Origin: Isoetes taiwanensis
Lineage: Eukaryota; Streptophyta; Lycopodiopsida; Isoetales; Isoetaceae
Assembly (NCBI GenBank): GCA_021234155.1
Contig: JAJEKV010000040.1
Location: 12,235,072-12,299,071 of the forward strand
Direction: 5' to 3'
DNA length: 64,000 nucleotides
The translations under genes were made by a program, and so were the position numbers. The first letter of the stretch is position 1; each line of letters opens with the position of its first letter. The notes under the pieces are model-generated. The model searched no databases, was not told the origin of the DNA, and saw nothing but the letters and a program-made list of their open reading frames with translations. This document shows positions 33,404 to 36,425 of the stretch, in pieces.

Positions 33404-36400
33404 CTAGTAATGGTGCCCAACGTTGCTGGGCACAATGTGAGAGGTTGTAAATCTTTCAGGATGCAATGAGAAAAATATGCAGTAAAGTTATGGTGCCTAG
33501 CATTGCTGGGCTAACGTCGGAATCTACAAATGCGTAAGGCGCAATATAGTATTAGCTTGTATAATATTGGGAGTTACAAAGATCTTCAATTGAATTAATA
33601 CAATACAACACGATGGGGTCATAGTCGTTAATTTCTATTATTGTTCTTGTATTTCGATTTGGAATCAAAATGTCATATGTTGTTGAACTTGGGGGCCTTT
33701 GTAAATGTATGCTTTGCATTGGCTTAACATAGGGATTTTGCATGAAGATACCAGTCGAAATTCTAAGGTGCATAAATATACATTCATTCTTGTGAATTCA
33801 TTCATTCATTTGGATTTGGTTTCTCTTCATTTTTGTTGTCGAGAGTATCACTACATAGTTTAAAAATTATTTCTATATTCGAAATGTGTCATGTTTACCT
33901 CCACTCCAAAATTCTAAGACCTTATATCGAAAAATTCAAATTATAATCATGATTTCTCCATATTTCGAATTGTTGTTGCAATAGTACCTATTGTTATGAT
34001 ATTGGGAAATATTGTTGTTGCAAGAGGACAATACTTATTGATGTTAAATTGAGGAATATTGTTGTTGCAAGAGGTTCACCCATGACGTACGCAAGGTCTT
34101 TTTGAGAACTGTATATGCTTTATCAAGCACCACTAATATTCAAAAGGATGAAACATATATCTTGAATCATTTAATATGAAATCATGTGAGCATTGAAATA
34201 TGAATCATGTGAGCATTGAGATACATCAGACATAGATTAATGTGAGCATCATCATCTATTTTTACACTCTCTCCAAGTTGTACCTTAATAAAAATACTCA
34301 ATAATACTAAGAAGTTTGCTCAGAGTTTACAATCTAATTGCAGAGAATATCATTATGTATTAAATTCTCTTTGTTTAAAAAACATGGTTTACATGACATG
34401 CCATCTCAGGGCATTTAAATGTTTATAGGCTTGAAACATTGTGATGATTTGTATCATTCTGTCCTTTATTGTTTTGCCTTGGCAGGTTTTTCCATCATCG
34501 TTTCAACTGTTGTCCCCCTAATCTGCCTCTGCCATGAAGACTGCTTGCTTCATTATATGTGCAGCTATAGCAGTATGTGCAGTCTAGTTCATACAAAATA
34601 AAATACCCATGCCAAAGCCCCCTAACAAATTATGCATGAGACATAGGTAACAATTTCTTTCACAATTTTAAAAGTTCTCTTGCCTCAATCTCAGAAGCTT
34701 GTGAATGACAAAGGCCTGCAAGCAGATGAATACTCATGTTACCAACCAATCCACCAACAACCAATGTAGAACCAAGATGTAAGGATAACAATCTGAAACT
34801 TGAGTCCTAGGCTTAGTTTAAAACTGCATCTATGTGTAGCACCACTGCAGAGTTGCATAAATTACTTGAATGATGCAGGGTCGTGAATGAACAACTTCAG
34901 CAAATGCATGAACTCAGAACTTGATGCTTTAATGGGTTTAAGTGCTGCACTGGGAGCCATGTTCAAGGGCAAAAACTCAGAGATGTTGGATATGACCCTT
35001 GCTTCAAATAGGGGTAATATGAAAAAAATGTAATAGAAATATTAATCTTTGCAGATTACTTGGAGAGCTCGCTGTAGAACGATATTGCGCCACTTCATGT
35101 TTAAATGGAATATAGATGCTGCCAATAAAATGTGTGTTAAATCGTGTCAAAGCTCAGATCTGGGGCCGTAAAAGCACCGGAGTCCGAAAACAGAGGAAAG
35201 ATCTAATCTGTTCGGTTCCCATCTGCACTGCAGTCTGTGCCATGAAATGAATCTTGCTATGCAAAGAGAAGTCCTCCAAAATATAATGCATTACGTGTGA
35301 CATTATGCGGTTTGATTACTCCCATTGTGCTTTTAACAGAGCTAGAGTAGAAACAGATCATGTCCAGTTTGTATTATGCCATGAAATGAAATCTTGCTAT
35401 GCAAAGAGAAGTCCTCCAAAATATAATGCATTCAGGTGACATTATGCAGCGCTCTACAATGTGAACCGCAATTTAAAGAAGATGTATTACCACGGTAGTG
35501 GAAGCAACTCCAAAGTCATGTGGCACCACAAAAAATAATCAGCTCCCTCAGACGATTCCAATACGGCCATTGGGTGGATATGTACCGAATAGCACTACGC
35601 ATCATTCTTGGGGACTTGAATGGCAAAGTGGCAAGCCATTTGGTGTTAAATCACGGTAGTATACACAGGTGTGAACAACCAATCTGCTTCTTCAGGATTA
35701 AGTGTTCTAATGATTCTTGATTCTTGGCGTCAAAATCATGCCGACACCATCCCCGACGAGATATAGATGCCCATGTGAATAATGTATAATCTGTATGCCC
35801 ATGTATAACTGTTTTAGCTTCATATAATATACCTTGTGTCCCCAGCAGCTCGCCTCTTATTACGTCCCCCCGAAGCTTGTTCCAATACTCCACCTCATCA
35901 TCACGATTTATAAATCCTCGGTGCAAATAGACACATGAAGTCGTGAAATAACATCAGATTATGCCACGGACCTTGCATGACCTCAAGAGTTAGCATGTAA
36001 TCCTTGATAACGATGCCCCCTTCTTCTGCAAGCACTGCTGCTGTGCGTGCTTTATCAGCTCCGGCGGATCAAAACATCGGAAGGTAAGAGAAAGATGGGG
36101 TTAGGGCTTGAAGGACACAAACAAAACACAAAACAAAATCATAGGGCCTAGGTTTTCCCTTGGGCACCGTGGCCGCCATAGCCACAAAAAACGCCCAGAA
36201 CCCTAATACGTCCAAACCCCTTTTTTTTGCCTTTTTTTTAGCTACGCATAGCCATAAAAAACGCCCAGAACCCTAAAATACGTCCAAACCCCTTTTTTTT
36301 GCTTTTTTTTTAGCTAAAAAGGCTTTTAACGTGACATCATCTACACCGTTGGGTAGATTAATCCGGACCGCCCAATTTAGGGCTCGGTGCACTACGCACT

Positions 36401-36425
36401 TACGGTATAACATTATAATATAAGA
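33404..36425 (-). mobile_element. non-autonomous Helitron candidate, 3022 bp, with captured gene piece
   Basis: On the minus strand the right end begins TCTTATATTATAATG (at 36425), fitting the TC start and AT-rich lead of plant Helitrons. The left end closes with a hairpin (stem GTGCCCA/TGGGCAC, 33413-33433), then CATTA and CTAG (complement at 33404-33407). The base beyond each end fits insertion between A and T: both flanks are the same (ATT)n repeat. No Rep/helicase coding is present, so it is non-autonomous. Near 35490-35926 it carries a piece of a GT47 gene on the same strand. Internal direct repeats lie at 35238/35377 (about 80 bases) and 36181/36251 (70-base unit). A second hairpin-like phrase lies at 33490-33512. 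Confidence 0.7.
35490..35926 (-). pseudogene. captured fragment of a GT47 exostosin-family (IRX10-like) gene
   Basis: The minus strand from about 35710 encodes, across frame changes, LNPEEADW, FTPVYTT, DLTPNGLPL, KSPRMMRSAIRYISTQWPYW, and then DNA matching GAD-FF-VPHDFG. This is the conserved core of plant GT47 IRX10/IRX10L and related exostosin-domain glycosyltransferases, which extend xylan in the Golgi. Frames shift near 35650 and 35545, so it cannot encode a working enzyme. Upstream on the same strand, 35926-35825 holds an open piece (INRDDEVEYWNKLRGDVIRG) that ends in a possible donor (ACAAG|GTATAT). I do not recognise that piece; it may come from another captured gene. The family assignment is from memory of the conserved motif. 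Confidence 0.7.

Follow-up and report, generated by a model that had tools for sequence, protein, structure and literature searches.

The element at positions 33404..36425 on the minus strand of the window (the whole stretch of 64,000 nucleotides of DNA analysed here) is almost certainly a Helitron that carries a captured piece of a GT47 gene. The features are given below. Element positions 1-3022 correspond to window positions 36425 down to 33404, and gene coordinates are those of the source gene (locus L054) in gene orientation.

33404..36425, minus strand: non-autonomous Helitron of 3022 bp, recognized by its ends, its flanks and the whole-length relatives L009 and L015
36409..36425, minus strand: 5' terminus, TCTTATATTATAATGTT; the same 17 bases are found in 14 of the 17 5'-end matches
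33404..33433, minus strand: 3' terminus, a hairpin followed by 9 bases, the final four being CTAG; from its fold and its genome relatives
36426..36550, unstranded: target microsatellite (ATT)n on the 5' side; the array was called at 36425-36550
33387..33403, unstranded: target microsatellite (ATT)n on the 3' side, from the array call
33404..33485, minus strand: 82-base 3' tail; 20 of the 41 listed genome matches cover query bases 1-82 only
33486..33520, minus strand: inner 3' end, older and decayed, immediately preceding the 82-base tail; Smith-Waterman score 32 against a shuffle maximum of 27
35491..35710, minus strand: exon end captured from an IRX10-like GT47 gene, with the reading frame shifted in the window copy
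35314..35490, minus strand: beginning of the next intron of that gene, also captured; element 716-1112 corresponds to gene 728-1125 at 93.8% identity
35238..35308, minus strand: additional partial copy of the intron (gene 992-1063), which gives the element a direct repeat
63125..63162, minus strand: degenerate relative of the 3' end, near the window edge, from Smith-Waterman scores against shuffles

Both termini are those of a canonical Helitron, with TC at the 5' end and CTRR at the 3' end, and the GC-rich hairpin, canonically about 10 bases before the 3' end, has a stem that ends 9 bases before it. The terminal 30 bases fold into a hairpin whose stem has 8 bp and whose loop has 5 bases, and their fold energy has a z value of -3.3, with none of 200 shuffles equally good; for a 57-base input the value is -2.6, and 3 of 200 shuffles are equally good. 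The initial annotation had placed a TC start at 36425 on the minus strand, and it is present there. The 3' hairpin and the CTAG at 33404 were also found, although the stem measures 8 bp and not the 7 bp that had been claimed. An insertion between A and T of an (ATT)n repeat lying on both sides had been proposed as well, and this was borne out when the element flanks were joined, by which (ATT)n is restored in phase. Only two (ATT)n arrays of at least 17 bases exist in the window, each abutting one end of the element; the first base of the array called at 36425-36550 doubles as the T of the 5' TC.

The combination of hairpin, CTRR and a following T was rejected as sole proof, one being found in the window when a mean of 0.63 is expected from 60 shuffled windows. 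Therefore, the proof of a Helitron rests on other evidence. Within the window, two further occurrences of the 3' end lie on the same strand, with Smith-Waterman scores of 40 and 32 against a maximum of 27 in 40 shuffles. A second 5' end near 62914 was considered and discarded, as the best 5'-end score outside the element is 23 and shuffles score up to 28.

The genome (1.658 Gb in 1110 contigs) was searched with the 101 terminal bases of the 3' end of the element. At least 41 matches were obtained, including the window, with 40 of 216 candidates scored. Among the 41 listed, 40 begin with the terminal base itself and the remaining one with base 3, and the full 101 bases are covered in 17. We retrieved 20 stretches, which represent 21 of the 40 other listed matches (the 15 best and a selection of weaker ones). 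The main end reads CTAG followed by T in 19 of these 20 copies, the exception being L027 with CTTT; when all 25 inspected 3' ends are counted, 22 read CTAG with T behind it, and two of the five further inner ends read CTAT. These ends were chosen by similarity up to their last bases, and it is the differing flanks that mark them as true ends. The flanks differ beyond the 3' ends except in L018, L022 and partly L028, which continue into the 5' end of another Helitron. In viral contigs, the 3'-end pattern of the element had no exact match.

Relatives of the whole element, from position 1 to 3022, are L009 (4826-7842, 96.2% identity) and L015 (4582-7784, two pieces of 91.5% and 93.7%); other dispersed copies agree with it in the 3' end and in the first 17 bases. 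Those 17 bases differ in L015, and two of the 5'-end matches are partial. The copies differ in their 5' parts, the first element position with similarity to the window element being 1 in L009 and L015, 655 in L012, L013 and L027, 864 in L010 and L011, about 1188 in L016-L021, and further in for L014, L022-L026 and L028. The base preceding TC in the 15 full 5' ends is A in nine, T in four and G in two. Three of the four T cases read A followed by TCTTCTTATATT, and both G cases are Helitrons joined head to tail. In L018 (7834/7835) and L022 (7814/7815), read in Helitron orientation, CTAG is directly followed by the TC of the next Helitron, the junction being CTAG and then TCTTATATT. A second copy of bases 3-25 of the 5' terminus stands immediately before the 5' terminus in L009 (4803-4825).

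The structure of the 3' end itself may point to a change of terminator. The hairpin of the inner 3' end (33486..33520) is no longer beyond chance, and the counterpart of this inner end in L028 still reads CTAG followed by T at 7730. L024, L025 and L026 match element 2941-3022 only, and the many listed matches confined to query bases 1-82 indicate that the 82-base tail occurs behind different interiors. Between the decayed end and the present one lie 82 bases, and the old terminator was perhaps bypassed and a new one used; for this step alone, we consider bypass the probable course, though with considerable reserve. According to the available part of the work on Helraiser/Helibat (PMC4778049), where the hairpin is missing or unread it is bypassed, new 3' ends arise and flanking DNA is carried along. 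The hairpin as terminator is common to both systems, and new 3' ends arising by bypass fit the inner decayed end; the bat element was assayed in cells, whereas the bypass here is deduced from that decayed end. The same step could also be explained by a second Helitron that inserted at the end of the first, moved jointly with it and was then mostly lost. Helitrons standing head to tail do exist in this family, as L018 and L022 illustrate, and adjacent maize Helitrons are reported in the available part of PMC2267711, but the left edge of the tail starts with TTACTGCAT, without the TC start of the family, and we hold such an adjacent insertion to be a possible, rather doubtful origin of the tail.

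For the mode of insertion, a natural empty site is provided by L023, where a 2315-base relative with both ends is nested inside another copy of the same Helitron family. When the two flanks of this relative are joined, they agree with the uninterrupted window element at 89 of 90 bases; the insertion point has A to its left and T to its right, and no bases are duplicated. The family's mode of insertion can thus be read at one site, and no second accession is needed for this. Insertion between A and T is thus seen at the window site and at L023, in addition to the T that follows CTAG in the main ends. The absence of a target site duplication refers to the single site of L023, because a duplication of whole units is indistinguishable within the (ATT)n target of the window. 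Rolling-circle transposition would have placed the window element between A and T of (ATT)n, with Rep/helicase made elsewhere supplying the movement of this non-autonomous element in trans. Scans of 31001-40900 in all six frames gave no hit to Rep or helicase, but they did not pick up the broken GT47 piece either and might likewise have passed over a broken Rep remnant. In the genome, the Helitron Rep domain PF14214 was matched above the cut-off at least 150 times, with 150 scored out of 1813 candidates, counted irrespective of ends, and this abundance makes movement in trans likely.

The captured piece was identified through its reading frames. NPEEADW and FTPVYTT lie in one frame and KSPRMMRSAIRYISTQW in another. 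The pieces joined across frames match the Pfam model Exostosin_GT47 (PF03016) with an E value of 1.1e-11 and 45 bits, against a cut-off of 33.4. When the window pieces were compared singly with Pfam, the first gave an E value of 0.027 and the second no match; the open exon of L009 (C1100:16366526-16366765) reaches 61 bits to the GT47 model unaided. A DNA search with window 35470-35745 gave 26 matches including the window. One of them, on contig C1027, is the source gene; its three open coding stretches are collinear with what we take to be the sequence of an IRX10-like protein and reach the C-terminus of that protein. The identity is 87-89%, and it is on this comparison that the gene is called IRX10-like. 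Five other GT47 loci considered as the source (L049-L053) were rejected, being only 28-42% identical to this protein. A PDB search with the GT47 pieces gave an antibody as its sole match (E value 0.58), which we attribute to chance, and two queries from the element gave no match in PDB. Eight frame pieces and joins outside the GT47 stretch, examined for further captured genes, had no Pfam match. On contig C1007, four short matches to the captured exon fall in two groups about 0.1 Mb apart (20352778-20464605), perhaps a duplicated locus.

In the window copy, 221 bases from the end of one coding stretch are followed by 177 bases of intron, about 400 bases altogether. Since an exon end and an intron start were captured together, the capture was from DNA and not from mRNA. 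Over exon and intron, L009 and L055 are each 97.2% identical to the source gene, compared with 93.8% for the window copy, and a 72-base repeat inside the element proved to be the second, partial copy of the captured intron. To the left of gene position 728, about 25 bases are common to the window copy, L009, L013 and L055 and different from the gene; this shared junction points to one capture event. An ancestor of the element would thus have captured genomic DNA, exon and intron, of an IRX10-like GT47 gene in a single event, with trimming afterwards. That a Helitron captured part of a GT47 gene had been the central claim of the initial annotation, and it is supported by the discovery of the source gene, the match to the GT47 model and the ends shared among copies. 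Two findings that the annotation had named as counting against it were not made: further copies were seen to have both ends in common with the element, and instead of continuing into an intact host locus, the GT47 homology of the window lies only inside the element, the source gene being on another contig.

Two other readings of the whole element were weighed. The GT47 stretch could be the remnant of a resident pseudogene with Helitron ends there by coincidence, in line with the 0.63 occurrences of hairpin, CTRR and T expected per window by chance, but this gene piece, left junction included, recurs elsewhere within copies that share the ends of the element (L009 and L013, for example), and we consider this origin extremely improbable. 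A plus-strand retroposon with an (ATT)n tail, which the 126-base (ATT)n at the right end of the element might suggest, is hardly credible given that none of the 17 relatives has (ATT)n beside its 5' end and that the element contains intron sequence.

Within the Helitron reading, longer stretches of the source gene are found on C977 (L055/L056) and C1079 (L057). In both places, a sequence related to the 5' end (77-78% identity over 97 bases) and the same left junction are present. C977 continues through gene 986-1551 and C1079 through 986-1452, where the retrieved stretch ends, and the next exon is included. In the 2.6 kb beyond the captured piece on C977, no 3' end of the family was found on the same strand; one lies on the opposite strand. 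The simplest order would be a long capture with an internal duplication, followed by loss of the later part in the subfamily of the window element.

The state of the exon was compared with the source gene in the eight copies that hold the exon piece from the left junction. It is open without gaps in L009, L013 and L055, lacks five residues in frame in L027, and is open but altered in L015. It is broken in the window copy (by frameshifts), in L012 and in L057, the last judged by 13 gap bases. L010 and L011 have only the last 25 exon residues, which are open. The exon is closer to the source gene than the intron in all eight copies compared. This was not taken as a sign of selection on the captured exon: given the common ancestry of the copies and a presumable constraint on the gene itself, the lower divergence of the exon is no evidence for selective upkeep. 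In L009, GT directly follows the exon. Judged from sequence, there is a slight chance that the open-exon copies (L009 with its splice donor, L013 and L055) may be spliced into transcripts or yield small RNAs acting on the parental IRX10-like gene; if this were true, the family would modulate the synthesis of xylan in this species.

Helitrons are already well known to capture genes in plants, and the capture of GIGANTEA in ryegrass is a close precedent (available part of PMC2702305). As far as that part describes them, the GIGANTEA-fragment Helitrons of ryegrass and fescue have in common with the window element the 5' TC, a subterminal hairpin, CTAG and insertion between A and T, together with captured host exon and intron pieces, frameshifts and stops, and no Rep/helicase was found in them; they differ in the captured genes, in their own end sequences and in a hairpin of 16 bases versus 21 here. 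Maize HelA-type Helitrons likewise have TC and CTAG ends, a palindrome with AA in the middle of CG, and adjacent Helitrons, according to the accessible part of PMC2267711. They have end sequences of their own and are set apart by that description, not by alignment. The wheat Xuan-Feng Helitrons, in the portion of PMC13286980 available, also show TC, CTAG, a short hairpin close to the 3' end and an AT target, and one member lacks transposase; their movement has been demonstrated, whereas the window element is known from its sequence. The phenomenon itself is established, and the interest of the present case lies in the completeness of the record. A single genome combines the source gene, longer and shorter captures, an earlier 3' end inside the present one and a natural empty site, and through their co-occurrence the order of the Helitron capture steps becomes readable from sequence.

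Several other features were observed in the window. Just outside the 5' flank of the Helitron, plus-strand matches to PPR repeats occur in three frames with stops between them (37590-38214), probably a broken PPR gene. Window 21072-23776 and 24650-27355 are direct repeats of 2.7 kb with 99.7% identity; they are separated by about 0.9 kb, have A-runs at their borders and reflect either a very recent duplication or an assembly artefact. Two inverted stretches at 39-1106 and 15580-16659 are 78% identical and, from a reading of their open reading frames, presumably resemble gag of a Ty3-type retroelement. Reading frames of a NIF-type phosphatase (13241-13984, plus strand) and of a UDP-glycosyltransferase (47187-47534, minus strand) are also present.
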